Positions 7,944 through 25,594 of a stretch of 64,000 nucleotides of DNA are shown one piece after another (within the stretch, counting starts at the first letter, position 1; each line of letters begins with the position of its first letter). Below the pieces are notes generated by a model. It did not search any database. It saw nothing but the letters and a program-made list of their open reading frames with translations, and had not been told where the DNA came from. Position numbers and translations under genes: made by a program. Source of the DNA: Chloroflexota bacterium (GTDB lineage: Bacteria; Chloroflexota; Anaerolineae; B4-G1; DUEL01); NCBI GenBank assembly GCA_014874475.1, contig JADBJJ010000025.1, positions 1 to 64,000 of the forward strand, in the 5' to 3' direction.

Positions 7944-7972
7944 TTGACATTTCCTTAACTGAAGATTACAAT
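7944..7972 (+). promoter_or_regulatory. Consensus housekeeping promoter of the ECF sigma gene
   Basis: A perfect TTGACA is followed by a 17-base spacer and TACAAT. Transcription should start near 7979, which excludes the longest reading frame start (7925) and leaves only about six bases before the ATG at 7985. Confidence 0.75.
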
Positions 7973-7984
7973 AAGAATATAGCC

Positions 7985-8629
7985 ATGATTGCTTTGCTCC
8001 CTACCCGATTCGTGCATCTTTGGCGCGGGATTCTGGCCTTCTCCAACGACATTTCTTATAGAGAAGGCCAGCGCGCTACGCCATCTGAGCAGGACCTGAT
8101 GCGGCGGCTGGCCCGCAGAGACCCGGATGCCGCGGCAGAGATGGTCCGGGCTTACGGGGATATGGTCTATCGGTTCATCTACAATCAGGTAGGGGGTATT
8201 GTGGAAGACGCAGAGGACATCACACAGGAAACCTTTCTGGCAGCACTCCAGAGCGCTCACCGGTTTCGCGGAGATAGTCGCCTGCGCACATGGCTGTTCC
8301 GGATCGCCGCCCATAAAATCGCCGACCACTGGCGCTCCCGCCGCAAACGGCCCCCCGAATTTTCTCTGGAAGACTGGCGCCCCACCGCTGACGAAGACGT
8401 GGCCCCTCTCACATTTCTGGAGGAAGCCGAGGTTCGGGATCGGGTGCGCACTGCCCTTCTGACTCTGCCTCCCCATTACCGGACCGCCCTAGTGCTCCGG
8501 TACGTGGAGGATATGCCGGTGGCCGAAATGGCCCAGGTGATGAACCGAAGTCTCAAAAGTGTGGAGTCCATCCTGATCCGCGCAAAACAGATGTTGGGGC
8601 AGACCCTGAGTAAAACGGATGAGTCTTGA
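7985..8629 (+). CDS. ECF-type RNA polymerase sigma factor
   Basis: A 214-residue sigma-70 family factor. Region 2 is seen in DMVYRFIYNQ, EDAEDITQETFLAAL and the DNA-melting segment FRGDSRLRTWLFRIAAHKIADHWR. Region 4 is the HTH (LPPHYRTALVLRYVEDMPVAEMAQVMNRS-type, split by a linker rich in Asp/Glu/Pro). The start at 7985 is dictated by the promoter just upstream; a later ATG at 8099 is possible. The gene overlaps the FecR-like anti-sigma gene by 11 bases, the classic arrangement for co-translation and control of the factor by its membrane partner. Likely targets are the surface-protein genes that follow. Confidence 0.9.
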   Translation: MIALLPTRFVHLWRGILAFSNDISYREGQRATPSEQDLMRRLARRDPDAAAEMVRAYGDMVYRFIYNQVGGIVEDAEDITQETFLAALQSAHRFRGDSRLRTWLFRIAAHKIADHWRSRRKRPPEFSLEDWRPTADEDVAPLTFLEEAEVRDRVRTALLTLPPHYRTALVLRYVEDMPVAEMAQVMNRSLKSVESILIRAKQMLGQTLSKTDES

Positions 8630-9896
8630 GCAAGTCGTAGAAGAACTGCTACGGGCGCTGGCACGGGAGGACGTGCGGTTGCGGCCCGCCTTCAGGGTTC
8701 AGTTGACCGAGCGGCTCATTGCCGCGATGGCTGCGCGCCCGCGCGTCCTCTGGTGGCGCCCGGTGTTGGCTGGGGCCGTCGCACTTCTCGTCCTGGCCAT
8801 CGCCGGATGGCTCCTGACCCCGCGTGTCACCCACTGGGCGACCCTCGCAGTCCAGGACGGTGTGGCTTGGGTCACCTGGCAGCGCCCCCTCTATTTTCGC
8901 TGGACCCGTTCCGGGACCGCTCAGGTCTCCGGGGGGCAGGAGTTCCTTCTGGCCGAAAAGGACCGGCTGACCCTTTCCCCGGACGGTCAGGGGAGCATCG
9001 CCTTTCCGGACGGAAGTCAGTTGCGCCTGATGGGTGCAACCGCTCTGACCCTGGCGGAGATGAACCCGGCCCAGATGACTACCCGAGCGAGGGTAGAGGC
9101 CGGTGAGGTATGGGCAGAAGTCCCTTCGCTCCCTGACCTGTTCTTTGAGATTCAAACGCCCGCGGCGACTGTGCGGGTACGTGGCACGGTTTTCCGTACC
9201 CGCGTTCTCGCCGCCGACCATACTTACAGCGCCACCGATGAAGGAACCACCCAGGTGACGCTGCTGGACCCGGCCCAGGGGTATCCATCGGTGGAAGTCC
9301 CCGCAGGCTATGAGGTGGATGCCATCATCGGTCAGCCGCTGCGGGTCCGCCCTCAGGCCCCCTCCATAGACCACTTAAGCCTGAACGGCCTCACCGTCGG
9401 GGCTCAGGCCTTCGTGACCTCTAACCGGTCGTCGCTGGAAATCTCTGGAAGGACGATCGCCAGGCATTGTGATGCCCTTCTGCTCGTCAGGGGGAGCGTA
9501 GTGGACCGGGCACCAGTCACACCAGAGGGGGAGTTCACTCTCCGCTTCCGGGCTCCGGCGGAGGGAGAGTATCCTATCTGCATCGCAGTAGAGGCTCCCA
9601 ATGGCCCACTGAGCCCCTGTCTCTTTTTGACTTACCATTACGACGCGACGCCCCCCGGCGTCCTACGCCTGCTGGCGCCCACCATGCCCGAGGTCTCTGA
9701 GGAGATCGTCACCATCCAGGGGGAGACGGAGGCCGGTGCAATGGTCCGGCTGAACGGGGAGATGGTCTCTGTGGACCAGGCGGGGGTATTTACGGTCCGC
9801 TGGAGACTGCAGCCGGGGGAGAACCCGATCACTCTGGAATCCTGCGACGAAGCGGGTAACTGTGCCCGTCTGGAGTTTGTCCTGATCCGGCGGTAG
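8619..9896 (+). CDS. FecR-domain membrane protein, probable anti-sigma factor
   Basis: A 425-residue protein with a short cytoplasmic N-terminus (1-45), one membrane helix (about 48-67) and a large extracytoplasmic part. Residues about 105-215 are a FecR domain (GSxLRLxGAT, TRARVEAGEVWAEV, TPAATVRVRGTVFRT). The C-terminal 180 residues look like two Ig-like domains, the last ending GENPITLESCDEAGN as in glucodextranase/cadherin-like repeats. Start is fixed by the overlap with the sigma gene. By analogy with FecR and similar proteins it should bind the sigma factor inside and sense a surface signal outside; the Ig domains may contact the surface proteins encoded next. No classical zinc anti-sigma motif is present. 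Confidence 0.85.
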   Translation: MSLEQVVEELLRALAREDVRLRPAFRVQLTERLIAAMAARPRVLWWRPVLAGAVALLVLAIAGWLLTPRVTHWATLAVQDGVAWVTWQRPLYFRWTRSGTAQVSGGQEFLLAEKDRLTLSPDGQGSIAFPDGSQLRLMGATALTLAEMNPAQMTTRARVEAGEVWAEVPSLPDLFFEIQTPAATVRVRGTVFRTRVLAADHTYSATDEGTTQVTLLDPAQGYPSVEVPAGYEVDAIIGQPLRVRPQAPSIDHLSLNGLTVGAQAFVTSNRSSLEISGRTIARHCDALLLVRGSVVDRAPVTPEGEFTLRFRAPAEGEYPICIAVEAPNGPLSPCLFLTYHYDATPPGVLRLLAPTMPEVSEEIVTIQGETEAGAMVRLNGEMVSVDQAGVFTVRWRLQPGENPITLESCDEAGNCARLEFVLIRR

Positions 9897-9943
9897 GACA
9901 ACCGTTGGATTTGTCTGGCCTGCCCTGACGTTGGAGGCGAAAG

Positions 9944-10768
9944 ATGCGAAAAGGATGGCTGGTGGGTTGGGTCCTCATCGGCGGCCTGCTACTCTGGGGG
10001 GCGAGCGTCCGGGATTCCGCCGTCGCTGGCTTCACTCCCACCTTCACGCCCACCGAGACGCCGACCAGTACGCCAACCGCGACCCCCACAGAGACGCCCA
10101 CTCCCACGGCGACATCCATTCCGCCCTCACCGCCGCCACCTCCTCCGCCGCCACCGCCACCCCCTCCACCGCCCGCGGAGACGCCGACCGCTTCTCCCAC
10201 CGCCACCCAACGGCCCACGCGGACCCCCACCCGGGGCCCGTCGCCCACTCCCTGGTGCTTCACCGCCACGCCGGAAGTGCCCGGCATCGTGGTGGAGAAA
10301 GAGGTCAACCCTCCCACCGTCTCCCTGGGGCAGAATGTCCGGATCACCATCCGGGTCCGAAATACGAGCACTCGACCGATATCCGGGCTGGTTGTGGAAG
10401 ATACCCTTCCCGCCTTTCTGCAAATTCTCTCCGTCCGTTCCACGCGGGGCATCCCTGCCATCTCTGGCCAGACGGTGCGGGTCGCCGTGGGGACACTGGA
10501 AGCGGGTGGCCAGGTCATCGTTGCAATAGAGGCACAGGCCCGCGCCGATGCGCTTGCCGGTACGGTGGTGGAGAACATCGCTGTGGCCTCATATGACGGA
10601 GGCCGAAGCACCGGCCCGTTCCCTCTCCCGACCCCAGACCGTCCAATGTGTCCGCTGATCCCTGAGGCAGGCAAGATTTCCCAACCCCCGTCCTCTGCCG
10701 GTCCATTGCTCCTTCTGGGGCTGGCGCTACTGGCCCTCAGCCTGGCCATTCGGCGAAAAACAGCGTAG
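9944..10768 (+). CDS. Surface protein with Thr-Pro/poly-Pro stalk, one DUF11 domain and LPXTG-like tail
   Basis: A 274-residue exported protein. It has a signal peptide (hydrophobic run about 8-27), mature start AGFTPTFTPTETPT, a Thr-Pro stalk with a run of some fifteen prolines, one DUF11 domain (about 110-215, EKEVNPPTVSLGQNVRITIRV onwards) and a C-terminal sorting-like signal. That signal is LIPEAG, then a hydrophobic helix (PLLLLGLALLALSLAI), then RRKTA. The layout resembles LPXTG proteins but with an IPEAG core, so covalent anchoring is only inferred. It shares its mature N-terminal motif and tail design with the gene at 12596. It follows the anti-sigma gene by 47 bases. Confidence 0.75.
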   Translation: MRKGWLVGWVLIGGLLLWGASVRDSAVAGFTPTFTPTETPTSTPTATPTETPTPTATSIPPSPPPPPPPPPPPPPPPAETPTASPTATQRPTRTPTRGPSPTPWCFTATPEVPGIVVEKEVNPPTVSLGQNVRITIRVRNTSTRPISGLVVEDTLPAFLQILSVRSTRGIPAISGQTVRVAVGTLEAGGQVIVAIEAQARADALAGTVVENIAVASYDGGRSTGPFPLPTPDRPMCPLIPEAGKISQPPSSAGPLLLLGLALLALSLAIRRKTA

Positions 10769-10844
10769 AAGCCGCGCGGGAAATCGTGCCCTGCTGACGA
10801 CTATCGTTATAGAACAATGTAACTCCACATCGCGGAGGTCAAAA

Positions 10845-11345
10845 GTGAGCGCGGCGCGACTGCTGGTTGTGGACGACAGCCCGGACCTCCTGGCCCTGCT
10901 CAAAGGTTTGCTGGAGCAGGTCAATGGCTTCCAGGTGTTTACAGCCGAAGATGGTCCATCGGCTCTCCGTAAGTTTCTGGAGGTCCAGCCCGATCTGGTC
11001 ATCCTGGACGTTTGGATGCCGGAGATGAGTGGAATAGAAGTGGCGCGCCGCATTCGCCAGAGTTCTTCCGTCCCTATCCTCTTCCTCAGCGCGGTAGGCA
11101 CACCCGAGGTGGTTGCCAGAGGATTGGAAGCGGGGGCCGAAGTATTCCTGACCAAGCCTTTCTCGCCTCGGGTCCTTCTGTCTAAAGTTTTTGAATTGCT
11201 TCACTGGTCAACCCATAAGGCAATTGCTGCATCCTATAATTCTAACTGCGATAAGGGAGGCATCCTTGAGCATGGTTCATATCCTGGTTGTGGCGGAAGA
11301 TGCAGAAATCCTCTCCGCCGTTCGTCATACACTCCAGATGGATGA
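10845..11345 (+). CDS. Single-domain response regulator (receiver) with out-of-family tail
   Basis: Residues 1-120 are a receiver domain: acidic pocket VVDDSPD, phosphoacceptor LVILDVWMPEMSG, Ser in place of the usual Thr (FLSAVG), and the conserved Lys in LTKPF. No output domain is present. The last 40 or so residues (from about HKAIAASYN) run across the next gene in another frame and do not look like protein of any family, so an ancestral stop may have been lost. The gene begins with GTG after a weak SD. It is the first of three tandem regulators with no kinase beside them. Confidence 0.8.
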   Translation: MSAARLLVVDDSPDLLALLKGLLEQVNGFQVFTAEDGPSALRKFLEVQPDLVILDVWMPEMSGIEVARRIRQSSSVPILFLSAVGTPEVVARGLEAGAEVFLTKPFSPRVLLSKVFELLHWSTHKAIAASYNSNCDKGGILEHGSYPGCGGRCRNPLRRSSYTPDG

Positions 11346-11634
11346 GGGCATAAATGTCCTTGCGGTTGGCGATAGCCAGGCAGCGCTCCGCCTTCTGACG
11401 GAGGTCCAGCCCGACCTGATCCTGCTGGATAGGGAGATGACCTTCAGAGAGGGGCTCCATTTACCTGCGAGAATGCGACAGATCTCTTGCGCGCCGATCC
11501 TTTTCTTTACGCGGTCGTATCAAACTCAAATTCCGACGAAAAACAGCGTCGGCGGGAATGGACTGATCTCGCGTATCCAGAAAGCGTTAGCCCGCGCTCG
11601 CATCCAGATTACCTCGCTCAACGTCATTTTATGA
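11266..11634 (+). CDS. Degenerate single-domain response regulator
   Basis: A 122-residue receiver-like protein. Strand 1 and pocket read HILVVAEDAEIL, the phosphoacceptor Asp is kept in LILLDREM, and Thr is kept in LFFTRSY. The conserved Lys-Pro is replaced by PTKNSVGG and a shortened loop, so phosphotransfer may be impaired. A TTG at 11266 was chosen because GGGAGG lies five bases upstream; an ATG follows two codons later. The gene overlaps the preceding regulator by 80 bases and the next one by an ATGA junction, making a tightly coupled trio. Confidence 0.65.
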   Translation: MSMVHILVVAEDAEILSAVRHTLQMDEGINVLAVGDSQAALRLLTEVQPDLILLDREMTFREGLHLPARMRQISCAPILFFTRSYQTQIPTKNSVGGNGLISRIQKALARARIQITSLNVIL

Positions 11635-12353
11635 ACGCGTTGGATTCAACGGCCACTCTTATGGATAAAGAGCGGGTTCTTATTGTAGACGATGATCCTG
11701 AAATGCTCAACCTCCTCCAGGCGCTGCTGGAGAGTCGGGGGTTTGCTGTCTATACGGCCTCCAACGGCGAGATGGCTCTCCATCTTCTTCCTCAGGTTGC
11801 TCCCGACCTGGTGATCCTGGATGTGTTGATGCCCGGGCTGAACGGGAAAGAGGTCTGTCAGCGCATCCGCCGCCATTCTTCTGTCCCTATTCTGTTTCTC
11901 ACAGCGGTCGGGGAGGTAGATTCCGTGGTGGACGGGCTGAACCGGGGGGCGGACGATTATATGACCAAACCGTTCCATCCCTCCGAACTGGTCGCCCGGG
12001 TTCAGGCGATGATGCGGCGCGCTCGGCTCTCCGTGGCTCCCCGGAGGCTGATGCGGTTTCGGGGGGGCGAACTGGTCATCAACCGCGACCTGGGGCGAGT
12101 CTTTCTCCGCGAGGAGGAGGTCCCTCTCAGCCCGCTGGAGTATAATCTGCTCGTTTTTCTGGCCGAACGGGCCGGACACATCCTCCCCCCGGAGACCATT
12201 CATCGGGCTGTATGGGGGCCAAACAGCGATGGGGACCTCAGCCATGTGAAGTGGTACATCTGGCGGCTCCGGCAGAAGATAGAAGCCGACCCGCGAAACC
12301 CCCGGTTTATCTGCACTGATCGGGGCCGGGGATACTACTTTGCCCCGGACTGA
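11631..12353 (+). CDS. OmpR-family response regulator
   Basis: A 240-residue two-domain regulator. The receiver has VLIVDDDPEML, LVILDVLMPGLNG, LTAVG and MTKPF, so all phosphorylation residues are present. The C-terminal winged helix (about 145-238) shows PLSPLEYNLLVFLAE and the recognition region SHVKWYIWRLRQKIE, followed by RGRGYYF. The ATG at 11631 was chosen for its ATGA overlap with the previous stop; 11661 is an alternative. No histidine kinase is adjacent, so it is an orphan here; the nearest kinase is at 48619. The position suggests control of the surface-protein genes on either side. Confidence 0.85.
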   Translation: MNALDSTATLMDKERVLIVDDDPEMLNLLQALLESRGFAVYTASNGEMALHLLPQVAPDLVILDVLMPGLNGKEVCQRIRRHSSVPILFLTAVGEVDSVVDGLNRGADDYMTKPFHPSELVARVQAMMRRARLSVAPRRLMRFRGGELVINRDLGRVFLREEEVPLSPLEYNLLVFLAERAGHILPPETIHRAVWGPNSDGDLSHVKWYIWRLRQKIEADPRNPRFICTDRGRGYYFAPD

Positions 12354-12522
12354 TCAGGCCTTTCCCTCATCCGGCGCCCCGCGGGCCGGCTATAGACGAA
12401 CGGTCTTGCGTAAATTTCCCGAAAGCCCCAAAATCGGTTCCTTCCTCTGCAACGGCAGGTATGGCTATTCATTCTCCTTAGGTTGTTCCCCGGTCTCCAA
12501 CCAAATTCAAACCTTGGGATGA

Positions 12523-12528
12523 TATAAT
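12523..12528 (+). promoter_or_regulatory. Extended -10 like element
   Basis: TGATATAAT contains a perfect TATAAT with the extended TG motif but no recognisable -35. It may be a second promoter for the 12596 gene. Confidence 0.35.
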
Positions 12529-12549
12529 TGAAAGAAAGACCAGCCAGAC

Positions 12550-12578
12550 TTGCCAAATGAGCCGATTTGATGTATTAA
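12550..12578 (+). promoter_or_regulatory. Promoter of the Thr-Pro protein/giant protein genes
   Basis: TTGCCA, 17 bases, TATTAA, ending 17 bases before the ATG at 12596. An AAGGAG ribosome site follows. Confidence 0.5.
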
Positions 12579-12595
12579 GGAAATAAGGAGCAAGG

Positions 12596-12931
12596 ATGTT
12601 TTCCAGGTATATTTGGATTACGGGATTCGGAATCGCCATCTTCCTGCTGCTCATCGGTGGGTTTATCACCAGGCAGCCAGCCTTTGCTGGCTTTACCCCT
12701 ACCCCGACGCCGACCGAAACGCCCACTCCAACCTCCACGCCCACAGTAACACCCACTCCACCTCCTCCACCACCCCCGTCTCCCTCACCGCTGGAGACCG
12801 CGACCCCGACTCCAGTGACCCCTCTCCTGCCAGAGGTCGGGGGTGGCCCTGTCATCTCTGCCTGGCCCTTCCTGGCCCTGGGCATCCTTGCTCTGCTGGC
12901 CGGGTGGCTGGCCGTAAAGCGCAAAGCATAA
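12596..12931 (+). CDS. Small Thr-Pro-rich surface protein with LPXTG-like tail
   Basis: A 111-residue exported protein consisting only of a signal peptide (hydrophobic 8-25), a Thr-Pro then poly-Pro stalk beginning AGFTPTPTPTETPT, and a sorting-like tail. The tail is LLPEVGGG, a hydrophobic helix (WPFLALGILALLAGWL) and AVKRKA. It looks like the 9944 gene with its DUF11 domain deleted. LPEVG differs from LPXTG only at the Thr, so sortase recognition is plausible but unproven; a simple membrane anchor is the alternative. It lies 60 bases before the giant DUF11 gene on the same strand and could be co-transcribed. Confidence 0.75.
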   Translation: MFSRYIWITGFGIAIFLLLIGGFITRQPAFAGFTPTPTPTETPTPTSTPTVTPTPPPPPPPSPSPLETATPTPVTPLLPEVGGGPVISAWPFLALGILALLAGWLAVKRKA

Positions 12932-12991
12932 AGCGTTTACGTCTCACGCATCACGTTTCATTTTTCACGTCTCACCCTCCAGGAGGCTCTC

Positions 12992-15900
12992 ATGCATCGT
13001 TCCTGGCTATCTCTCTGGACGCTTTTATCTCTATTTTTGAATTTGACTATGCCTCTGGGCGCCTCCGCCGCGCCTGCTTTTTCAGCAACGGATGCCGCCG
13101 TCCGTGAGGTGAACCTCCTTCCTGCTTGGTTCGCCTCCTCCCGAGCGCATACCGCCCAAGGCTCCACCACCCTGCCCGCCTGGTTCTCCGCACCGATACC
13201 GGCTACCAACTACCCGCCGTCGGCTAACGACTATCCGTTACCGGCTACCCATCACACCATCTATCCCTCTGCCGTCACCGTCACTGGCCCGACTGGCGCG
13301 ATCAACAACTGCGATGTAGTCACCTTCACCATCGTCGCCACCAACGACGCCGTCACCACCACCGGAGTGATCATCACCAGCACGATGCCAGCGGGGTTTG
13401 AGCCCACCCAGTGGGTCTTTGACGTGGGCGAAGTGGGCCCCAACCAGGTCATCACCCGCCACGCCGTCTTCTCTGCCACCTGTAGCGCCGTCTCCGGGCA
13501 GAATGTGTTCACCCTCACCCAGGACGGTTATCCACCCATTGTCCGCTACACCGACTTTGTGGTCAACCCCGGCGCCATCACCGTGCGCAAGGAACCGGCG
13601 ATCGCCCCCGCCGCCATCGGTGACGTGGTCACCTGGACGGTGTACGTGGAGAACACCGGCTACGGCACCGTCTCCAACGTGGTCGTCACCGACGTATTGG
13701 GCAGCGGGCTGGAATACGTCTCCGGCGTCACCTCCACCTCCTACGTCTCCCTCGCTGTGGGACAGGTGGTCACCTTCCCCATTGCCGCGCGGGTGGTGGG
13801 ATGTTCGGGACTGGAGAACGTGGTGACCGCAACCTGGGGCTGCCCAGGGCAAACCTGCCTGACCCCGCAAACCGCCAAAGGGGCAGTAGACCTGCGCATG
13901 CAGAACCCCGACCTGAATTTTGTCCTGCCGCCCTTGGATGTGCCCTACTGCGCCGGGTCGGGCGTTTTCACCATCCCCATCACCAACGTCGGGGATGGAA
14001 CGGCCTACTCTGGAACCTTAGCAGTGAATTTCTCTCCCTTGAGCGTGACCGTCGCGCCGCCTGCTTCCTACAGCGGCGGCGCCTTCCACCTGCCGCCCAT
14101 CCCGCCCGGCGGGACCTACAACCTGGTCTTCACCCTCACCCTCCCCTCTGCCGTCTGCACGATGCCCCGCAGTGGGACCTTCAATTTCGACCTGGACTAC
14201 ACCGACCGCTGCGGCAATCCCTATACCGAGTTGCCACAGAACACCTCCTGGCAATTGACGAACGCGCCCGGGCAATTGAGCGTCAGCAAATCCATGCCCG
14301 GCGAGGTCTATCGGGGCGAGAGGGTCACGCCGACCATCACGGTGAATGCCGATGGCATCGTCGGGAACATTGTCGTTACCGACCGGGTGCCGGCAGGCTG
14401 GAGCGTGGTGAACGCCGCAGGCGGCAACGTCTTCACCATAGGCGGCGTCACCCACATCACCTGGACGCTGACCGGCTCTGCTACCCTCAACCCCGTCTTT
14501 GTCACTCCCGACGCTGCCACCGGTTGCCAGTATTGCGGCACGCTGGCCACCAACGTGGTCACCGCCACCGCCTCCGATTGCCAGAACTGCCTCCAGACCG
14601 CTACTGCCCAGGCTTCCACCTATCTCCAGTGCGAAGAGCCGGTCGCGACTACCGAGAAACAAGTTTCTGCTCCTGTAGCGGCCTGTAGCGACCCGGCCTA
14701 CGTCTACACCAACACCTATGCCTTCGCCAGCACCTTCAACGTGACCCCCACCTGGCAGGGGATGGTCTTTACCGACGTCCTCCCGTACCAGACCTACATC
14801 CCCGGCAGCGCGTCGGTCTGGATGGGCAACGGCGTCCTGTCCTGCACCGCCGCCTTCTCCGAGGCCGTCGTGGGTGGGAGACTGGTCATCTCCAACATCT
14901 CCCCCACCTGCGCCATCACCGTCCCCGGCGCTACGATGTGGATTACCTACCGGACGGCCGTCACCGAACCGTCCACCTGCGCCGATGCCGAATTCTACGA
15001 CTGGTCGTACCTGAATCTGGGGGTGACCGGAAACGCCGAATGCGCCGCCGACGGCGTGATTGAAGAGGGCGTCTTCGTCCAGACCCTGGCCCCGGCGATG
15101 GCGCTGGACCTCTCCGGCCTGCCCCCCTGGGTCTCCTCCTGCGGCATCTATACGGTGACCCTCACCGCGCAGCGCACCTCCGCCGTCCCCGCCTACGACG
15201 CCGTCATAGATGTGCCGACCAGCACCTACTACATCCTGGACGTGCTGGGTTTTGACGGCGCGGCGCCCGCCTACACCACGACCGACGCGCTGGGCTACCA
15301 CTGGTACTACTCCGACACCTTCGCCACCGCCACCACGGGCACGGTGCAGTTGCGGGTACAGTTGCGCTGTGGCAGCGGCACTGCGCCATTCCAGGGCACC
15401 CTTTCCTATGACAACCAATGTGCCGATAACAGTACCTACCGGGAGCGGTGCAGCACCGGCGGCACCCTGGGCGCGCCGCCCATCGTCCAGCCTTTGCCCA
15501 TCATGACCAAATTCCCCGAAGTCATCTATGCCCACGGGGATGTGGTCACCTGGACGCTCATCGCCTACAACTCCGGCGCCGGGCCCGCCTATAGCGTCGT
15601 CCTGACCGACGTCTTGGGCAGCGGCCTGCGCTACATGGATTCGTCCATCACTTCCACCTTGGGCTCCGTCGCCGGGGTGACCCCCGTCACCTCGTCCAAC
15701 CGGGTCACCTGGACCCTGCCGGTGATCCAGCCCAAGGAGCGGGTGACCATCCGCTATGTGGCGGAAATTATCGGCTGCACCGACCTGACCAACCGCTTCG
15801 CCGGCGCGCAGGGCTGCCTGGGCCAGACCTGCCAGAGCGGCGGGCCAGTGACCTCCCGCGTGGAACTTCCGCCGACGATTCTCCTCAACACCAACCAGGC

Positions 15901-18900
15901 GGTCACGCCGATTGACACCTGCTACACCCGCACCGTCACCGTCACCGTGCGCAACGCCGGACTCCTCAGCGTCTACTCCGCCGCCCTCACCGAGACGCTG
16001 CCGCTGGGCCTGCGGTACATCACCAATACCACCCAGGTCAGCACCGATACCGTTACCTGGCAACTCGGTCCCAATCCCAGCATCGTCGGGCAAAACCTGT
16101 ATTGGGATTCCACCAGCGGCGGGCCGCTGGACACGCTCCTTTCCCGCATCCGCCCCGGCGGGACGGTCTACCTGCGCTACGACGTCTACGCCTCCTGCCC
16201 ATTCGAGGGTGGGCAACTGCGCATCCAGACCGGATACCTGGACGCCTGTCGCAACCCCTACCTCACCGAGGCCTCGTACTTTGTGATGCCGGTGCGCCAG
16301 GCCGACCTGACCCTGGTCAAAACCGGCGAGAATCTCAGCCGCACTTCCCCCTCACCCACAATGATTTACGCCGAGCCGGGGGAGCCGGTGGTCTTTACGC
16401 TCACGCTTTCCAATGCCAGCGCCGCGGCTCCGGCGCACCTGGTGGCGGTCACCGATACGCTACCGGGCAACGTGGTCTTTTGGGACGCCAGCCCCGGCTA
16501 CAGCGGCCCCGCGCCCGGCTCCCTGGGCGGGGTCATCACCTGGTCCATCCCGCTGCTCAACCCCGGCGAGAGCCGCGTCCTCACCGTGACCACCGTGGTC
16601 AGCCAGCCGGAGGGGTGCACGGTGGCCGACACGTACAACACCGCCGCCGTCGCCTGGGGCTGCCCCGACGGCTGCCGCCAGAGTCTCCCGCCGACGCAGG
16701 TCACGCTGCGCACCCGGCCGGTCTACGATACACCGAGCATCCGCACCGACATCCCGCCCGCCACCCTCCACCGGTGCGGCGGCGAGATCACGGTTACCCT
16801 GAACAACCAGGGGCCGCCCGCCTACAACGTGATCCTCACCGACACCCTGCCCTCCGGCTATGTCTACAGCGCCACCGTCTACGCCAGCACCCCACCCTCC
16901 AGCACGAGGGACCTGGGCCAGACGGTGGTCTACACCTGGGGCGTGCTCCCCACCGGCCTGACCACGCTCGTCCTGGCGGTGCGCAACAGCGTCGGAGCGG
17001 GCGGGTGCGTCGTGCCTTTCGGCCCCAACGTCATCACCATGACCTATGACGACGACATCGCTGATTGTTACACCACGGGTCTGTACAGCACCACTGCATC
17101 GGCGAACATCAACGTGGTGAGTCCTACCCTGGCAGTGGACAAGTCCCCCGCCAGCCTCACCGCCCAGGTGGGCCAACAGGTCACCTGGACGCTGACGGTG
17201 ACCAACACCGGCAATGGCACGGCCTACAACGTGGTGGTGACCGACGTGGTCGGTTCATCCTTCGTCAGTGTGACGGCGACCGGCGGTGGGGTCGTCGCCG
17301 GGAACGTGGTCACCTGGACGCCGGCGCCGATTCCCGCCGATGGGGTCTGGACGGCGCAGGTGAGCGCAGTGCTCATCAACACCGGCGATAACCGCAACGT
17401 CGTCACCGCCACCGCCTCCTGCGATACGGGGTGTCTGGCCACCACCGCCTCCGATGTGGCCTACGTCACCCTGATGCAGGGGTTTGACAAGGGGCCAGCG
17501 ATCCAGACCGGCACCATCGGCAGCCTGGTCGTCTTTACCTTCACCGCCTTTCTGCCCGATATTGAGAACATCTACGAGCAATTAACCTTCACGGATTCGC
17601 TCTTTGCCGGTCTGGGCTACGTGGCCTCTGCTCTCACTGTCACCTGGGATGTTGACGGCAATCAGGGCGGACCGGTGACTACTGTAATCACTACCCCGAG
17701 TTCCACACCCGGCTATCTGAATAGCGGCGATATCGTCTGGCGGCTGGGGAATATGACCGGCACCGTGCAAGTGAACGGCGTGATCACGGCTGTGATCCAG
17801 AATGCCGCCGTTGCCTACGACGGTGCCCGGCTGACCAACTGGCTGGCGATGACCTACTGGGACGACGGCCAGCCCTACCGCTACGATGACTTTGCTCAGG
17901 TGGACGTGCTAGAGCCGCTCCTGCACATCGGCAAGTCCTACGGGACGCCGTATGGATGCAACGCCACGCTGTTGCAGGATGATTTCAACGACGGGAATGC
18001 TACCGGCTGGGTGGCCGGCAGCGGCACGTGGAATGTGGTTCAGGGAGAATACCGCGCAACCGGTAGCGGTGCTACACGCCTCAATGGCAGCACTGCATGG
18101 ACTGACTACAGTTTCAGCGCAATGCTGCGCGGGGATAGCACGACGAACAGGCCTGGAATATATTTGCGCCATGCTGATGATAATAACTTCGTGCGACTGT
18201 TTTGGCCTACCACTTCTACCTTGCGCTTACAGCAGCGAGTTGGTGGAACTTTTACCACTCTCCGGGATTACTCGTACGCGTTTACCCCTGATACCTGGTA
18301 TCACTTTGAGGTGCAAGTAACAGGCAACACCGTTTATATCTGGGTGAACGGTAGATTGCTGACACCGGTGACGTCATTCTCCCCCACTTTATCAGCCGGA
18401 CGAATAGGGCTTTACAACTCGGGTACCAGCACAGCCGTCTCCCGCTTTGATGACATCCTGGTCACCCGCCTGGGCGATATGGCCTGCACCGTCGGCGCGG
18501 GCGACCTGGTCACCTACACCCTCACCATCTCCAACCAGGCCCGCATCCCCGGCTACGACCTGGTCATCACCGATGTGATCCCCGCCGGGACCAGCCTGGT
18601 CACCTACACGATGACCTCGGATGACCCCACCGCTCAGGTAGTGGCCGCGCCTGCTCCCATCCCCGGCGCCACGGGCGTGCTCACCTGGGGCATCAACCAC
18701 CTGACCCCCACCGTCCCCTACACCTGGGGCCAGCATACCGCCATCACCCTCAACGTGGTGCTTCAGATCGCCGATGGGATTACTGCCAACACGGTGCTTT
18801 CCAACCAGGCCTCGCTGGCCTACAGTTCCCAGCCCGGCAGCGGCCCCGTGGGCGTGGAGCGCCCCTACAGCGGCGGCTCCCACTCCACCGCCGTGCGCAC

Positions 18901-21900
18901 CGTCAACGGCGGCATCCTCAAGACGGTCACCTTCTCCCCGCCGCCCACGGCCACGCTGGGCACGCTGGTCACCTACACGCTGATCGTGCCCGCCAGCCCC
19001 ATCAGCGCCACGCTGTACACCGTGCGGGTGACCGATACGGTGGACAGCCGTCTGCGGATAGAGGGGGTGACCACCGGCGGTGGGACGGGCGGGCTCTCCG
19101 GTTGGGCCGGCCAGTTGGTCACGGCCACCTTTGCCAGCATCCCCCACAGCACGCAGGCTTTCATTACCATCACCGCGCGCATCTCCCACGAGTGGCCCAG
19201 CGCGGCGGGCGACGCCAACGCCGGCGACGTCATCACCGACGTGGCGCAGATGAGCCACGCCACCGCCCCGGTGACCAGCAGCAACACGGTCAGCACGACG
19301 GTGGGCGAGCCGAACCTGCTCCTGGATAAATCTGCCGAATCCAGCACCGGGAGCCTCACCGACCTGGACGGCACGGCCCTGCTGACGTACACCATCCGCC
19401 TGACCAACACCGGTACCAGCCCTGCCTACAGCGTCTACATCACCGACGCGGTTCCGGCGGGCATCTCCGTCACCGCCCAGTACGGCGGCGATAGCCGCAG
19501 CGGTCCGGTCGTGGGGCCAGGGGTACTCACCTGGATAGTGGGGTATATCAGCAACACCGCCCCGGCCAACGTCGTCGTCCTCACCTATACCGCGCGCGTC
19601 TCCCAGGCGCTGGTCAACGCCTGGATGACCAACACCGTGGACATCCTCTACCACTCCCTCACCGACACCATCCCCGGCGTGCGGCCCTACACAAACACCG
19701 ACCAGTTGCCATTGGAGACGGCCCAACCGGCGGTGGACAAACTCACCGAACCCTTTATCCTTGAAGTCGGCGATGTGGTGACCTACCATGTGGTCTTCAC
19801 GGTCCCGGCCGGGACGGTCTGGTCAGGTCACACGTTGGTGGATAGCCTCAGCCCCGGTCTCTGGTATATCACCAACAGCGAGACCCTGACCTGGACGCCG
19901 CCCACGGTCAACGTGACCATCACCAGCCGGGTGAGCAATACGACCGAGGTCCCCGGTTCCCAGATCATCCGCTGGTACTTTGAACCCATCACCAGCGAGC
20001 AGGAGAACCCAACGGTGGTCACGATGACCTTCCAGGCGCAGGCCGTCGGGCTGCGTATAGACACGCTGGAGCCGGTCTGGCTCACCCAGACCGAGCGCTT
20101 CTGGCCGAGCAACTATGTGCAATTGGAGTTCCCGTGGCCGAACGTGGTGACCGATGTCGTCGTCAATATGCTCCTCCAGCCCTACCTGGAGATCGCCAAA
20201 GAGAGCACCCCGCCGCCTGGTGCATTCGTAGGTGCGGGCGACCGCATCACCTATACGCTGGTGGTCACCAACTCCGGCCACGGCCAGGCCTACGACATCG
20301 TCATTAGCGACGTCCTGCCGGCGGAACTGTTCTACGTGACGTCCACCGTCGCCAGCGATAGCCCGCCGTATATCACCTTCCTCGCTGAGCCGCCGATGGG
20401 CGCCACGGGGGTGCTGACCTGGCGGGTGAACGAACTCTGGGGGCTGGAGTGGGGTTCCTATGGGCCGAAGGTGGCGACGGTCACCGTCGTGGCGCAGGTG
20501 ACCGACACCGTTGGCGCCAACCTCATCCTGACCAACACCGCCGCCATCCCATACTACGACTCCCAGCCCGGCGACGGCCCCGGCCCCTACATCCCCGACG
20601 AGCGGGAGTACACCGACGGCTCCGACAGCGTCTATCACCGCACGGTGGACGCGGGAATCCTCAAGACCGTCACCCCGCCCACGGCCACGTTGGGGAGTGT
20701 GGTCACCTACGTCATCGTCGTCCCGGCGACGCCCATCACCGCCACCCTCTACGACGTGACCGTCACCGACCGACTGGATTCCCGCCTGCAACTGCACACG
20801 GTGACGGACGGGCCGGACGGCGATGTGACCGTCGGCGGCAACACGTTCACCGTCACCTATCCGGCCATCCCGCACGGCCAGCAGCGCTTGATCACGGTGA
20901 CGGCGATCCTCTCCGACCCGCTGGGGGCGGTGGCGGGCAACGTCATCACCAACCTGGCGGTCCTGCAGCACCGGGACGGCGGCCCGACGAACTCCAATCA
21001 GCCGGTCTTTACCGTCACCGAGCCGTCGCTGGCGCTGGTCAAATCCAGCGACCCGCCCACCAGCAGCACCGTCCGCGCCGGCGAGCGGGTGACCTACACC
21101 GTCGCTATCACCAACCGTTCGGGGGTCACCATCAGCCTCGCCTACGACGTCCTCTTCACCGACACGCTGCCAGTCGGGATGCGTGCGGCTCCCCCCGTGC
21201 TTCTCGCCGTTACGCTGAACGGCGCACCCGCTTCGGCCAGCGATTACATCACCGGCTATAACCCGGCCACCGGCGCCTTCACCGTCGCCTTCACCCCCGC
21301 CTTCAGCATCCCCCTGGGCGGCGAACTGGTCATCCAGTACGTGGCGACGGTGGATTCCGATGCCCCGGCCGCCACCGACCTGACGAACCGGGCTGAGGCC
21401 ACCTGGTCCAGCCTGCCCGGAGACGTGCCCGGCGACCGGGATTACGGCCCGATCACCGACACGACCACTGTGCACACACCGCTGGCGACTGGTCTGGTCA
21501 AGAACGTCTCACCGCCCACGGTGACGGTCGGCTCGCGGGTGGTCTTTACAGTCGCCGTACCCACCCCGCCCGTCGGGGCCGTGCTGCACAACGTCATCGT
21601 CACCGATGTGGTGGACGGCCGCCTGCGGATTGACGGGGTCAGTCCCAACGCCACCTTCAGCGGCCAGGTGGTCACCGCCTTCTTCACGACCATCCCCACC
21701 TACACGCAGCAGCACATCATCATCACGGCCACCGTGCGCGACCTGGTCACCGTCACCGCCGGCACGCAGATCACGAATGGGGCCCTCTTTGACTATCGGG
21801 ACAACCCGTCCGGCCCCATCCCGTCCAATGTGGTGACGGTCACCGTGGCCGAGCCGCAGGTCACACTGGACAAATCCGTCCAGGTGCCGCGCGACCCGCT

Positions 21901-24900
21901 GGGCGCAGGCGACATCGTCACCTACACCCTGGCTCTCTCCAACACCGGCACCTGGCCGGCCTACGACCTGGTCATCACCGATAGCCTCCCGGCCGGCCTC
22001 TCCTTCGTCGCCACCGTCGGCTTCACCGTCACCGACCCGGCCACCGCCGCGCTGGGCGGGACTTATCCGGCCTGGACGGTCTCGCAACTGAACGTGGGCG
22101 GCTTTGTCTACATCACCTTCACCGCGCAGGTGGCCTGGGACATCGGTGCGGGGCGGGTTCTGACCAACGCCGCCTGGGGCCGGTACGACGGCCAACCCGG
22201 CCCGAACCCCGACCAGCGGACGTATCCCATCCCGACGGACACCGTGCCGGTGAACACCGGCTACCCGGCGCTGGACCTGGAGAAATCGGCCGCGCCGAGC
22301 CCGGTGGAGGCGGGTGGCCTTTTGACCTATACCCTTACTGTGACCAACACCGGTATTGTTTCGGCGACGGGCGTGGTCATCACCGATGCGGTCCCGGCCA
22401 ACACCACCTACCTGTCCTGCGGTCCGGCCCCGTGCAGTGAGGGGGGCGGCGTCGTCTCCTGGACGCTGGGCGTGCTGGATATCGGCGTCCCGCGCCTGGT
22501 GACCATGGTCGTGCAGGTGGCCTCGCCGCTGCCCAACGGGACAATCATCACCAACACCGCCTGGGTCACCTCCACCGAGGGCCTGACCGACACCGACACC
22601 ATCACCACGCCGGTGGGGAGCGCCCCCATTCTGCATCTGGCCAAGTCCAGCACCGACGGGAACGGGCTGCCCTTGCGCCCCGGCGACCTCCTGACCTACA
22701 CCCTCGTCGTCTCCAATACCGGCAACGAGACGGCCACCAACGTGACCGTCTCCGACACCATCCCGGCCCACACCACCTACGTCCCCGGCTCCATCGCTGG
22801 CGGGGATAGCCGCAGCGACGCCGGTCTGCCGGTGCTGGTCTGGACGATCAACACTCTACCGCCGAACGTGCCGGTTTATTTGACCTTTGCCGTCACGGTC
22901 AACATCCCGCTGACGGACGGGCTGCCGATTGTTAACACCGGCGCGGTCACCGCCACCCAGGTGCCGACACCGACCACCGATACGGTCACCGATACCGTCA
23001 CGTCTGCCCATATATTGGCCGTGACCAAGAGCGCCTGGCCCAGCCCGGTGCAGGCCGGAGACCTGCTGACCTACACCATCGCCTACACCGTCACGGGCGA
23101 CGAGCCGGTCTACGGCGTGACCGTCAGCGACACGGTGCCGGTCAACACCACCTTCGTCACCGCGACACTTCCTCACATCCTGATAGGCGACACAGTGGTC
23201 TGGCCGTTGGGCGACTTTTTGCCGCCCGCAAGCGGAATCACCCAGGCCACCGGCATCCTGACCCTGGTGGTGCAGGTGGACAGCCCGCTGGTCAGCGGCA
23301 CGGTCATTTATAACGCCGTCGCCATCACCGACACGTCGGGCCTCACAGACACCGACGACATCACCACGCCGGTCCAGAGCAGCCACACGCTGAGCGTGAC
23401 CAAGAGCGCGTCGCCTTCGCCGGTGCAGGCCGGGGGGTTGCTGACCTACACCATCGCCTGGGGCATCTCCGGCAACGAGCCGGCCTTCGGGGTGACGGTC
23501 TCGGACACAGTGCCGCTGAGCACGACTTTTGTTTCCTGCACCGGCGGCCTCTCCTGCGATGAGTCGGGCGGCCTGGTGACCTGGGACCTCGGCGACCAGT
23601 ACCCGCCCGCCTCGGGCGTGTTGACCCTGGTGGTTCTTGTGGACAGCCCGCTGGTGAGCGGCACGCTTATCTACAACGGTGTCGCCATCACCGACACGTC
23701 CGGCCTCACGGATACGGACGACATCACCACGCCGGTCCAGAGCAGCCACGCGCTGAGCGTGGCCAAGAGCGCGTCGCCTTCGCCGGTGCAGGCCGGGGGG
23801 TTGCTGACCTACACCATCGCCTGGAGCGTCTCCGGCAACGAGCCGGCCTTTGGGGTGACGGTCTCGGACACGGTGCCGCTGAGCACGACCTATGTGGCCT
23901 GCGCTGGCGGCCTATCCTGCGATGAGTCGGGCGGTCTGGTCACCTGGAGTTTGGGCGACCAGTACCCGCCCGCATCGGGTGTGGTCACCCTCATCGTTCG
24001 GGTGGATAGCACCGTACCTACCGGGACGGTGCTCTACAACGCCGTTGCCATCACCGATACCTCCGGCATCACCGACACCGACGAGATCACTACACCGGTG
24101 GAAGCCCGCGCCGACCTGGCGGTTGTCAAGGCCGACGACCCCGACCCGGTCATCGTGGGCACACTGCTCACCTATACGCTGTCGGTGACCAACTACGGCC
24201 CGTCCGACGCCCAGAACGTAGTGGCGACCGACATTTTGCCGCCGGAGGTGGCCTTCGTCTCCGCCGATCCCGCGCAGAGCGCCGGCCCCAACCCGCTGGT
24301 CTGGAATCTCGGCGACCTGGCCGTGGGCGAATCCCTGCGGCTGACGGTCACCGTACGGGTGCTGGTGACGACGACCGGCGTCTTTACCAACGCGGTCACC
24401 GTCGGCTCCGACACGCCCGACGACAATCCCGCCAACAACACCGACGACGAACCCACCACGCCGCTGGTGCCGGGTCTGGAACTGACCAAAGACGTGGCGC
24501 CGGGCCAGGCGGTGCGGAGTATGCCCTTCACCTACACCATCCGCATCACCAACACCGGCCAGGTGACCTTTGACCCGCTGGTGCTGACGGACACGCTGCC
24601 CGCCGATTTCCACTACGTCGTCGGTTCCGGCAACCCATCCGACCCGGACATCATCGCCGAGCCGACGCTGGTCTGGCAGAACCTGGGACCGCTGGCGCCG
24701 GGCGCGAGCCTCACCGTCACCTTCGCCGTCACCGCCACGCCGGGCATCACCGGCACCTACTGGAACGTGGCGCTGGTCGGTGGCGAGTATCCGGGCGGCG
24801 TCCTGACCGACACCGACGACGCGCCGGTGGCGATTGAGGACCCCACGGTCGCCATAGATAAGCAGTTGGTGGCCTTTGACAACGACGACCTGCTTCCCAA

Positions 24901-25594
24901 CTTTGTCACCTTCACCATCGTCATCACCAACGTCGGCATCAGCACGATAGATACCCTGCCGCTGCTGGACCAGTACGACCCGTACTACCTGAGTTTCGTC
25001 ACGGCGGAGCCCTATCCTGAGGATGATGCCGACGACGGGATGATCACCTGGCTGGACCTGACCGGCCCGGCTCCCCACGGCTTTGACCGAAACCTGGTTC
25101 CCGGTGAATCGTTCCGCATCACCACCGTCTTCCGTGTGGTCCACGACATCACCACGACGGTGAACACGGCCATCATCAGCGATCCGGTAGATATTTACCA
25201 GAATCCGGCCAACGAGCCGCGCGACGACGAGCCGATCGTCAACATCCCGACGGCGGTGGAACTCCTGTACTTCCGGGTGGGCAGGGTCTCGGGCCAGAGC
25301 GTCCGGCTGGAGTGGGCCACGGCAGTAGAGATAGACAACTTTGGCTTCAACCTCTACCGGGCGCCGGGGGACGATTTCTCGCGGGCCACAACCATCGCCT
25401 TCGTGCCCTCCGAGGCGCGAGGCGGCGGGGCGACCTACGTCTACAACGACACGGCGCCCTACGAGGCCGTCTGGTGGTACTGGCTGGCGGATGTGGACAC
25501 TTCGGGCCGGGAGACCCTGCACGGGCCGGTGAGCGTGCAGGTGGGAGCGGCAGCCCTACGGTATCGGGTCTATCTGCCGCTGGTGCTGCGGTGA
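12992..25594 (+). CDS. Giant secreted DUF11-repeat surface protein (4200 aa)
   Basis: A signal peptide (about 1-28, cleavage near ASAAPA) is followed by about 25 DUF11-type beta domains. Each unit has the pattern K-(S/T)...G(D)xVTYTLxVxNxG...A.(D/N)VVVTDxLPxG. Around residues 1655-1825 (nt 17935-18475) a LamG/concanavalin-like domain is inserted (DDFNDGNATGW, GIYLRHADDNNFVRLFW, DTWYHFEVQVTGN). Units near 18.5-22 kb form a higher-order repeat with PPTATLG units. Units at 23371-24096 are nearly identical at DNA level. The C-terminus (from about VELLYFRVGR) is a fibronectin-like domain ending in YLPLVLR, a tail seen on many exported Chloroflexota proteins and probably a sorting or anchoring mark. 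Likely a long cell-surface fibre or adhesin. Long reverse-strand frames inside it are shadows. Confidence 0.9.
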   Translation: MHRSWLSLWTLLSLFLNLTMPLGASAAPAFSATDAAVREVNLLPAWFASSRAHTAQGSTTLPAWFSAPIPATNYPPSANDYPLPATHHTIYPSAVTVTGPTGAINNCDVVTFTIVATNDAVTTTGVIITSTMPAGFEPTQWVFDVGEVGPNQVITRHAVFSATCSAVSGQNVFTLTQDGYPPIVRYTDFVVNPGAITVRKEPAIAPAAIGDVVTWTVYVENTGYGTVSNVVVTDVLGSGLEYVSGVTSTSYVSLAVGQVVTFPIAARVVGCSGLENVVTATWGCPGQTCLTPQTAKGAVDLRMQNPDLNFVLPPLDVPYCAGSGVFTIPITNVGDGTAYSGTLAVNFSPLSVTVAPPASYSGGAFHLPPIPPGGTYNLVFTLTLPSAVCTMPRSGTFNFDLDYTDRCGNPYTELPQNTSWQLTNAPGQLSVSKSMPGEVYRGERVTPTITVNADGIVGNIVVTDRVPAGWSVVNAAGGNVFTIGGVTHITWTLTGSATLNPVFVTPDAATGCQYCGTLATNVVTATASDCQNCLQTATAQASTYLQCEEPVATTEKQVSAPVAACSDPAYVYTNTYAFASTFNVTPTWQGMVFTDVLPYQTYIPGSASVWMGNGVLSCTAAFSEAVVGGRLVISNISPTCAITVPGATMWITYRTAVTEPSTCADAEFYDWSYLNLGVTGNAECAADGVIEEGVFVQTLAPAMALDLSGLPPWVSSCGIYTVTLTAQRTSAVPAYDAVIDVPTSTYYILDVLGFDGAAPAYTTTDALGYHWYYSDTFATATTGTVQLRVQLRCGSGTAPFQGTLSYDNQCADNSTYRERCSTGGTLGAPPIVQPLPIMTKFPEVIYAHGDVVTWTLIAYNSGAGPAYSVVLTDVLGSGLRYMDSSITSTLGSVAGVTPVTSSNRVTWTLPVIQPKERVTIRYVAEIIGCTDLTNRFAGAQGCLGQTCQSGGPVTSRVELPPTILLNTNQAVTPIDTCYTRTVTVTVRNAGLLSVYSAALTETLPLGLRYITNTTQVSTDTVTWQLGPNPSIVGQNLYWDSTSGGPLDTLLSRIRPGGTVYLRYDVYASCPFEGGQLRIQTGYLDACRNPYLTEASYFVMPVRQADLTLVKTGENLSRTSPSPTMIYAEPGEPVVFTLTLSNASAAAPAHLVAVTDTLPGNVVFWDASPGYSGPAPGSLGGVITWSIPLLNPGESRVLTVTTVVSQPEGCTVADTYNTAAVAWGCPDGCRQSLPPTQVTLRTRPVYDTPSIRTDIPPATLHRCGGEITVTLNNQGPPAYNVILTDTLPSGYVYSATVYASTPPSSTRDLGQTVVYTWGVLPTGLTTLVLAVRNSVGAGGCVVPFGPNVITMTYDDDIADCYTTGLYSTTASANINVVSPTLAVDKSPASLTAQVGQQVTWTLTVTNTGNGTAYNVVVTDVVGSSFVSVTATGGGVVAGNVVTWTPAPIPADGVWTAQVSAVLINTGDNRNVVTATASCDTGCLATTASDVAYVTLMQGFDKGPAIQTGTIGSLVVFTFTAFLPDIENIYEQLTFTDSLFAGLGYVASALTVTWDVDGNQGGPVTTVITTPSSTPGYLNSGDIVWRLGNMTGTVQVNGVITAVIQNAAVAYDGARLTNWLAMTYWDDGQPYRYDDFAQVDVLEPLLHIGKSYGTPYGCNATLLQDDFNDGNATGWVAGSGTWNVVQGEYRATGSGATRLNGSTAWTDYSFSAMLRGDSTTNRPGIYLRHADDNNFVRLFWPTTSTLRLQQRVGGTFTTLRDYSYAFTPDTWYHFEVQVTGNTVYIWVNGRLLTPVTSFSPTLSAGRIGLYNSGTSTAVSRFDDILVTRLGDMACTVGAGDLVTYTLTISNQARIPGYDLVITDVIPAGTSLVTYTMTSDDPTAQVVAAPAPIPGATGVLTWGINHLTPTVPYTWGQHTAITLNVVLQIADGITANTVLSNQASLAYSSQPGSGPVGVERPYSGGSHSTAVRTVNGGILKTVTFSPPPTATLGTLVTYTLIVPASPISATLYTVRVTDTVDSRLRIEGVTTGGGTGGLSGWAGQLVTATFASIPHSTQAFITITARISHEWPSAAGDANAGDVITDVAQMSHATAPVTSSNTVSTTVGEPNLLLDKSAESSTGSLTDLDGTALLTYTIRLTNTGTSPAYSVYITDAVPAGISVTAQYGGDSRSGPVVGPGVLTWIVGYISNTAPANVVVLTYTARVSQALVNAWMTNTVDILYHSLTDTIPGVRPYTNTDQLPLETAQPAVDKLTEPFILEVGDVVTYHVVFTVPAGTVWSGHTLVDSLSPGLWYITNSETLTWTPPTVNVTITSRVSNTTEVPGSQIIRWYFEPITSEQENPTVVTMTFQAQAVGLRIDTLEPVWLTQTERFWPSNYVQLEFPWPNVVTDVVVNMLLQPYLEIAKESTPPPGAFVGAGDRITYTLVVTNSGHGQAYDIVISDVLPAELFYVTSTVASDSPPYITFLAEPPMGATGVLTWRVNELWGLEWGSYGPKVATVTVVAQVTDTVGANLILTNTAAIPYYDSQPGDGPGPYIPDEREYTDGSDSVYHRTVDAGILKTVTPPTATLGSVVTYVIVVPATPITATLYDVTVTDRLDSRLQLHTVTDGPDGDVTVGGNTFTVTYPAIPHGQQRLITVTAILSDPLGAVAGNVITNLAVLQHRDGGPTNSNQPVFTVTEPSLALVKSSDPPTSSTVRAGERVTYTVAITNRSGVTISLAYDVLFTDTLPVGMRAAPPVLLAVTLNGAPASASDYITGYNPATGAFTVAFTPAFSIPLGGELVIQYVATVDSDAPAATDLTNRAEATWSSLPGDVPGDRDYGPITDTTTVHTPLATGLVKNVSPPTVTVGSRVVFTVAVPTPPVGAVLHNVIVTDVVDGRLRIDGVSPNATFSGQVVTAFFTTIPTYTQQHIIITATVRDLVTVTAGTQITNGALFDYRDNPSGPIPSNVVTVTVAEPQVTLDKSVQVPRDPLGAGDIVTYTLALSNTGTWPAYDLVITDSLPAGLSFVATVGFTVTDPATAALGGTYPAWTVSQLNVGGFVYITFTAQVAWDIGAGRVLTNAAWGRYDGQPGPNPDQRTYPIPTDTVPVNTGYPALDLEKSAAPSPVEAGGLLTYTLTVTNTGIVSATGVVITDAVPANTTYLSCGPAPCSEGGGVVSWTLGVLDIGVPRLVTMVVQVASPLPNGTIITNTAWVTSTEGLTDTDTITTPVGSAPILHLAKSSTDGNGLPLRPGDLLTYTLVVSNTGNETATNVTVSDTIPAHTTYVPGSIAGGDSRSDAGLPVLVWTINTLPPNVPVYLTFAVTVNIPLTDGLPIVNTGAVTATQVPTPTTDTVTDTVTSAHILAVTKSAWPSPVQAGDLLTYTIAYTVTGDEPVYGVTVSDTVPVNTTFVTATLPHILIGDTVVWPLGDFLPPASGITQATGILTLVVQVDSPLVSGTVIYNAVAITDTSGLTDTDDITTPVQSSHTLSVTKSASPSPVQAGGLLTYTIAWGISGNEPAFGVTVSDTVPLSTTFVSCTGGLSCDESGGLVTWDLGDQYPPASGVLTLVVLVDSPLVSGTLIYNGVAITDTSGLTDTDDITTPVQSSHALSVAKSASPSPVQAGGLLTYTIAWSVSGNEPAFGVTVSDTVPLSTTYVACAGGLSCDESGGLVTWSLGDQYPPASGVVTLIVRVDSTVPTGTVLYNAVAITDTSGITDTDEITTPVEARADLAVVKADDPDPVIVGTLLTYTLSVTNYGPSDAQNVVATDILPPEVAFVSADPAQSAGPNPLVWNLGDLAVGESLRLTVTVRVLVTTTGVFTNAVTVGSDTPDDNPANNTDDEPTTPLVPGLELTKDVAPGQAVRSMPFTYTIRITNTGQVTFDPLVLTDTLPADFHYVVGSGNPSDPDIIAEPTLVWQNLGPLAPGASLTVTFAVTATPGITGTYWNVALVGGEYPGGVLTDTDDAPVAIEDPTVAIDKQLVAFDNDDLLPNFVTFTIVITNVGISTIDTLPLLDQYDPYYLSFVTAEPYPEDDADDGMITWLDLTGPAPHGFDRNLVPGESFRITTVFRVVHDITTTVNTAIISDPVDIYQNPANEPRDDEPIVNIPTAVELLYFRVGRVSGQSVRLEWATAVEIDNFGFNLYRAPGDDFSRATTIAFVPSEARGGGATYVYNDTAPYEAVWWYWLADVDTSGRETLHGPVSVQVGAAALRYRVYLPLVLR
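17935..18475 (+). other. Inserted LamG/concanavalin-like domain segment, AT-richer than surroundings
   Basis: Within the giant gene this segment drops the Thr/Val/Asp DUF11 style for a jelly-roll sequence rich in aromatic and Asn residues. Third-position codon use shifts to A/T (for example in the stretch around 18100-18440). It interrupts a DUF11 region, which resumes with a domain start at about 18490. Confidence 0.6.
23371..24096 (+). repeat. Two near-identical 363-bp tandem repeats in the giant gene
   Basis: Units 23371-23733 and 23734-24096 encode consecutive DUF11 domains of 121 residues with only scattered differences. A third, more diverged copy precedes them from about 22996. This indicates recent duplication or gene conversion. 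Confidence 0.8.

Follow-up and report, generated by a model that had tools for sequence, protein, structure and literature searches.

A sigma–FecR gene pair linked to a DUF11 surface protein, beside a GhlA-type giant fibre gene in an Anaerolineae genome

We describe a surface-protein locus in a metagenome-assembled genome (MAG) of the class Anaerolineae (Chloroflexota), located in the 64,000-nucleotide stretch of contig JADBJJ010000025.1 that was analysed (the window). The locus looks like two modules lying side by side rather than one fixed system. Module A (7985–10768) consists of an extracytoplasmic function (ECF) sigma factor, a FecR-type anti-sigma candidate and a threonine- and proline-rich (Thr/Pro) protein, TP1; three response regulators, RR1 to RR3, lie next to it. 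Module B (12596–25594) consists of a second Thr/Pro protein, TP2 (111 residues, LPxxG-type), and a giant protein of 4200 residues. The reading that we favour, with confidence that is evenly balanced, is that a FecR–sigma switch reads a wall-anchored DUF11 rod, beside the gene for a GhlA-type fibre that has its own small partner. All of the parts named in an earlier note on this DNA are present, all on the forward strand and in the order sigma, FecR, TP1, RR1, RR2, RR3, TP2, giant. The features are as follows.

7944–7972, forward strand: sigma-70-type promoter of the sigma gene, TTGACA-17-TACAAT (11/12 matches)
7985–8629, forward strand: ECF sigma factor, regions 2 and 4 (Pfam Sigma70_r2 9.9e-18, Sigma70_r4_2 3.8e-14)
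8619–9896, forward strand: FecR-type membrane anti-sigma candidate, 425 residues (Pfam, structure model, orthologs)
9944–10768, forward strand: TP1, with signal, AGFTPT start, Thr/Pro rod, one DUF11 domain, LPxxG-like tail, transmembrane helix and basic end
10845–11345, forward strand: RR1, receiver-only response regulator (Pfam Response_reg 5.8e-29)
11260–11634, forward strand: RR2, degenerate receiver lacking the conserved Lys (Pfam Response_reg 3.3e-12)
11661–12353, forward strand: RR3, OmpR-type response regulator (Response_reg 3.1e-32, Trans_reg_C 3.8e-20)
12520–12528, forward strand: extended -10 element (TGATATAAT) ahead of TP2 and the giant, with a weak -35
12596–12931, forward strand: TP2, small Thr/Pro protein with AGFTPT start, LPEVGG motif, transmembrane helix and basic end
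12992–25594, forward strand: giant GhlA-type DUF11 fibre protein, 4200 residues (Pfam and N- and C-terminal homology)
25565–25594, forward strand: YRVYLPLVLR at the C-terminus of the giant, a YLP-box putative sorting motif (NCBIfam NF053834 10.6 bits, cut-off 10)

The locus was compared with a class-level sample of 396 genomes, its own included, and with a sample of the 40 nearest relatives. Sampled genomes carry G-numbers (the source MAG is G000) and the loci taken from them L-numbers. Genes in relatives were predicted using a self-made codon model together with homology searches. Most of the genomes are fragmented MAGs and some lack part of their sequence, which makes any single absence weak evidence (completeness is 100% for G007 and 95% for G048), and genome counts represent non-independent events.

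The sigma protein scores above the cut-off of the NCBIfam sigma70-ECF superfamily. Its boundaries and those of its neighbours agree approximately with the earlier note, save for the start of the sigma gene, which is most likely ATG 7985 because the N-terminus is conserved in G004 and G014; position 7944 belongs to the -35 element TTGACA. The promoter block at 7944–7972 is conserved in G003 and G004, and since it is of the sigma-70 type, autoregulation is not indicated. The overlap of the sigma and FecR genes had been recognized correctly and amounts to 11 bp (sigma ends at 8629, the FecR ATG is at 8619). FecR carries a FecR domain (Pfam 2.5e-12) and is predicted to have two short helices inside the cell, one transmembrane helix (about residues 47–66), and a FecR beta domain with immunoglobulin (Ig)-like domains outside. 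These outer Ig-like domains, also foreseen in the earlier note, were found as Glucodextran_B (6.7e-9), with Big_6 below its cut-off. The structure model has a mean predicted local distance difference test (pLDDT) score of 80.9.

Module A is conserved in relatives. Clear FecR orthologs occur in 8 of the 40 nearest relatives, three of them recognized by the N-terminal part alone, and, with E values no higher than 1.2e-87, in 10 of the 396 class genomes, counting the source genome. The sigma gene lies directly upstream of FecR in all nine orthologous loci with enough contig. A Thr/Pro-DUF11 protein lies downstream of FecR, or is fused to it, in all nine loci with continuing sequence. In G000, G003, G004 and G039 this protein follows FecR immediately, in G001 and G083 a CHASE2 kinase gene intervenes, and in G014 a CHASE2 cyclase; the only CHASE2 protein of the source genome, a cyclase, is encoded elsewhere than at this locus. 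In G037 and G040 FecR is fused to the Thr/Pro-DUF11 part through a Thr/Pro linker, and the G037 fusion ends in VYIPMILRRR, resembling the ends of the giants. An evolutionary link between the sigma–FecR pair and an LPxxG-type Thr/Pro-DUF11 surface protein is thus supported by gene order, and joint action of FecR and the DUF11 rod is most strongly indicated by the fusions. TP1 is the member of this class in the window: its DUF11 domain (Pfam 1e-13) matches the pattern of the Lys-Asp-Asn triad.

The earlier note had placed two anchored Thr/Pro proteins directly after FecR, which holds for TP1, while TP2 follows the regulators and directly precedes the giant. Likewise, its three receivers are three proteins, of which one is receiver-only, one degenerate and one a complete OmpR-type regulator. 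RR1 has a C-terminal extension that overlaps RR2, and its ortholog in G004 (L029) stops at about 121 residues; RR2 has a 46% identical gene in G003.

Module B is defined by the pairing of TP2 with the giant. TP2 lies beside the giant in 12 of the 27 upstream regions that were read: directly before it in ten genomes (G000, G001, G003, G006, G007, G010, G012, G014, G083 and G048), which comprise the source genome, seven relatives of its order and two of another family, and one gene upstream in two genomes of a further family (G207 and G192). The association spans at least four families, and TP2 is apparently a previously unreported small partner of GhlA-type giants. All TP1 and TP2 copies, except that of G039, have the mature start AGFTPT. 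This start is nearly invariant in the TP proteins, while the rest of the rod varies. Within the source genome the GFTPT start is found in TP1 and TP2 only; a third DNA match, on C5, was rejected, as in-frame stops make it non-coding in that frame.

The giant is a single intact frame. Pfam detects 18 DUF11 stretches in it (E 7.7e-185), and a local profile counts 29 DUF11-like units. It begins with a signal-like, hydrophobic N-terminus followed by a Cys-bearing N-terminal block, and it holds an insert resembling a 3-keto-disaccharide hydrolase or laminin G. The name CLIPPER replaced DUF11 once a Lys-Asp-Asn isopeptide bond had been seen in a crystal structure (PMC12617251). The tandem units of the giant resemble the CLIPPER stalks of fibrillar adhesins (PMC12617251, 9IFR) in carrying this triad, which 17 of the 29 units have, as judged by a regular-expression pattern rather than from structures, and the isopeptide bond is here predicted from that pattern. 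Searched by sequence, the whole giant matched no solved structure. A Foldseek search with the modelled N-terminal block (pLDDT 81) returned only tandem Ig-like folds of a generic kind, among them integrins and axoneme proteins, which points to a beta-sandwich array in the model and to no specific relative.

The nearest described protein is GhlA, which a recent report presents as a grappling-hook-like filament protein of Litorilinea aerophila, with 6,596 residues, 49 DUF11 domains and a hydrophobic stretch at the N-terminus (PMC13319060). A profile of the N-termini of giant orthologs matches 60 of the 396 class genomes (about 15%). Among them is G203 (2.3e-45), where one open reading frame (ORF) has exactly 6,596 codons. 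Against this ORF the N-terminal block of the giant gives a domain E of 4.6e-47 and its last 170 residues a blastp value of 7.9e-13. Taking the G203 ORF as GhlA from its length and layout, we infer that the giant is a GhlA homolog, and its fibre may likewise form hooks. Both proteins are giant DUF11 chains from the same bacterial class, with a hydrophobic N-terminus, a YR-YLP ending and homology in the N-terminal block and the C-terminal domain, but they differ in length (4200 versus 6596 residues) and in the insert. They differ also in the gene upstream, TP2 at the giant and a SurA-like/thioredoxin gene at the GhlA-like ORF. The parts of the report consulted contain nothing on partner genes or control (PMC13319060); the present locus adds to it an N-terminal family in about one in seven of the sampled class genomes and a TP2-type partner.

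Wall anchoring is suggested by the ends of the TP proteins. At their C-termini, TP2 and most copies of TP1 carry an LPxxG-like motif followed by a transmembrane helix and basic residues. The source genome has two sortase genes, one of which may link both proteins to the wall. Signal, LPxTG-like motif, transmembrane helix and basic tail resemble those of LPXTG sortase substrates; the motif is canonical in the TP proteins of relatives (LPVTGG, LPETG, the latter in TP1 of G083), whereas the window has LPEVGG in TP2 and IPEAG in TP1. For the giant, with its YLP-box, the putative sortase_YLP NF053836 was considered as sorter and rejected for the source genome, where the model is unmatched; it is present in 3 of 150 class genomes. 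YLP[LV]V-type tails are found at the ends of many large surface proteins in the source genome, despite the lack of a match to NF053836 (L042:5814–11378, reverse strand; L043:6996–11603; L045:3415–8502; L039:17455–19260 and 19293–20000, both reverse strand).

From these components a mechanism can be proposed. FecR would act as the anti-sigma factor of the adjacent sigma, keeping it at the membrane, and TP1 would be its sensing partner: the outer part of FecR, with its Ig-like domains, would read the state of the putatively wall-anchored, Thr/Pro-linked DUF11 rod and, in relatives, a CHASE2 sensor as well. The sigma factor would then be freed when the envelope or adhesion changes, and the response regulators may contribute a second input. 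Module B would produce a surface fibre, with TP2 probably anchoring or capping the giant. A bolder version, which we consider doubtful, holds that the anti-sigma ectodomain is mechanically coupled to a DUF11 rod in the wall (of the isopeptide type in this genus), with which it is fused in two relatives, such that load on, or loss of, adhesive fibres, including the GhlA-type hook in this genus, would directly release sigma.

Several results weigh against parts of the favoured reading. When the cytoplasmic part of FecR was compared with Pfam and NCBIfam, the known anti-sigma domains, DUF4880 included, gave no match, and because that N-terminal domain is unmatched the protein is not classed as a classical FecR. 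No anchor model of Pfam or NCBIfam exceeds its cut-off for the TP proteins of the window; TP2 reaches 15.7 bits against the 15.9 required by NCBIfam LPXTG_anchor, and the Pfam anchor model is unmatched. TP2 was not seen beside the giant in 15 of the 27 upstream regions (one genome of family f2, ten of f6, three of f44, and G203). Identifying G203 as L. aerophila would follow from ORF length and layout alone, and part of the homology between the giant and GhlA could be repeat similarity, DUF11 repeats being alike by nature.

How far the two modules belong together can be judged from their distribution. TP2 and the giant occur without a close sigma–FecR ortholog in G006, G007, G010, G012 and G048 (G007, G010 and G012 have distant FecR proteins only), and the sigma–FecR pair occurs without a detected giant in G004, G015, G037, G039 and G040. 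The earlier note had proposed a self-contained sigma/FecR system controlling the fibre, and had named relatives that keep the giant without the pair as the first half of what would refute it; the gene-neighbourhood comparison found such relatives. The tie between sigma–FecR and a DUF11 surface protein stands, but membership of the giant in the same system is not supported; the giant has TP2 as its conserved neighbour and would not be obligately under this sigma.

The strongest rival holds that two unrelated surface loci were brought together as accidental neighbours with no functional link. Among genomes carrying both modules they are joined only in the source genome and lie on different contigs in G001, G003, G014 and G083. 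Against this, the layout common to TP1 and TP2, with GFTPT start, Thr/Pro rod, LPxxG-like motif and transmembrane helix, is rare, DUF11 occurs in both modules, and RR3 precedes TP2 and the giant in two species; we regard mere coincidence as possible but somewhat unlikely.

Less probable is a single self-contained system, in which sigma–FecR senses the surface and turns on the giant fibre through the regulators. The genes share one strand with short gaps, and the GFTPT start links TP1 and TP2 to the exclusion of other proteins of the genome. In the sister species G003 (L052) RR3 precedes TP2 and the giant, and in G004 (L029) sigma, FecR, TP1, RR1 and RR3 are contiguous, which suggests that the genus may have inherited the joined order from its ancestor. 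Moreover, the giant family occurs in 5 of the 10 genomes with a FecR ortholog, compared with 60 of 396 in the whole sample (Fisher p about 0.009, uncorrected for relatedness). The two sets of five genomes with one module alone speak against such a unit, as does the 242-bp gap between RR3 and TP2, which holds a sigma-70-like promoter whose extended -10 is matched at the corresponding position in G003 by TGGTATCAT. A generic ECF promoter pattern, GGAA..-CGT, had no match upstream of sigma or of TP2, and no ECF-type element common to the two regions was found. The least likely alternative, that FecR is a structural or adhesive envelope protein with no anti-sigma role and that sigma is controlled otherwise, would fit the missing anti-sigma domain and the best NCBIfam matches of FecR, which are weak and to leptospiral surface proteins, but a sigma gene adjoins FecR wherever visible, overlapping it here, and the cytoplasmic segment is conserved among orthologs.

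Compared with known regulators, the favoured FecR–sigma switch resembles FecI–FecR pairs in that an ECF sigma gene overlaps that of a FecR-domain protein with one transmembrane helix. It differs in lacking a detected DUF4880-like N-terminal domain, in its Ig-like outer domains and in its Thr/Pro-DUF11 partner or fusion. No TonB-dependent receptor was noticed among the locus proteins scanned with Pfam, no genome-wide search having been made. The BiofilmReg operon of Burkholderia (PMC5192318) is similar in that it encodes a FecR protein, of the FecR-LysM type, together with a response regulator and a CHASE2 kinase, and CHASE2 genes adjoin FecR in relatives of the present locus; however, BiofilmReg has no sigma factor or DUF11 protein, and this locus has no CHASE2 gene. 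Among the papers searched, none was found that ties DUF11 to an anti-sigma factor; the search returned other DUF numbers starting with 11. The FecR–sigma pair tied to a DUF11/Thr-Pro protein is a concrete candidate for an anti-sigma factor that reads the state of the cell surface.

Further observations concern the surroundings of both modules. A fusion gene for a SurA-like and thioredoxin/AhpC protein adjoins GhlA-family giants in several families, as well as the 6,596-codon ORF (L085:2646–3803 and L092:807–2264, both reverse strand; L087:2264–3355; L089, reverse strand); its product possibly assists the Cys-bearing N-terminal block in folding or disulfide formation. The gene that follows the giant (window 27026–28111; L053:8106–10325) is kept in G003 and matches no Pfam family. 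In G001 another large surface protein, ending in YRLYLPIVLRNR, directly precedes TP2 and the giant in the place of RR3 (L057:1–2268). Single ORFs in G008 (L080:4439–6904) and G010 (L081:1122–4382) combine a sigma-70-like region, a histidine-kinase-like region and a transmembrane FecR part with a Thr/Pro tail, while the related G007 (L079) has sigma and FecR as separate genes. Finally, a small gene whose product has CxxC motifs and a helix-turn-helix-like segment (7241–7546, reverse strand) is divergent from the sigma gene and has its own sigma-70-like promoter (7671–7643); G003 has a similar sequence ahead of its sigma gene.

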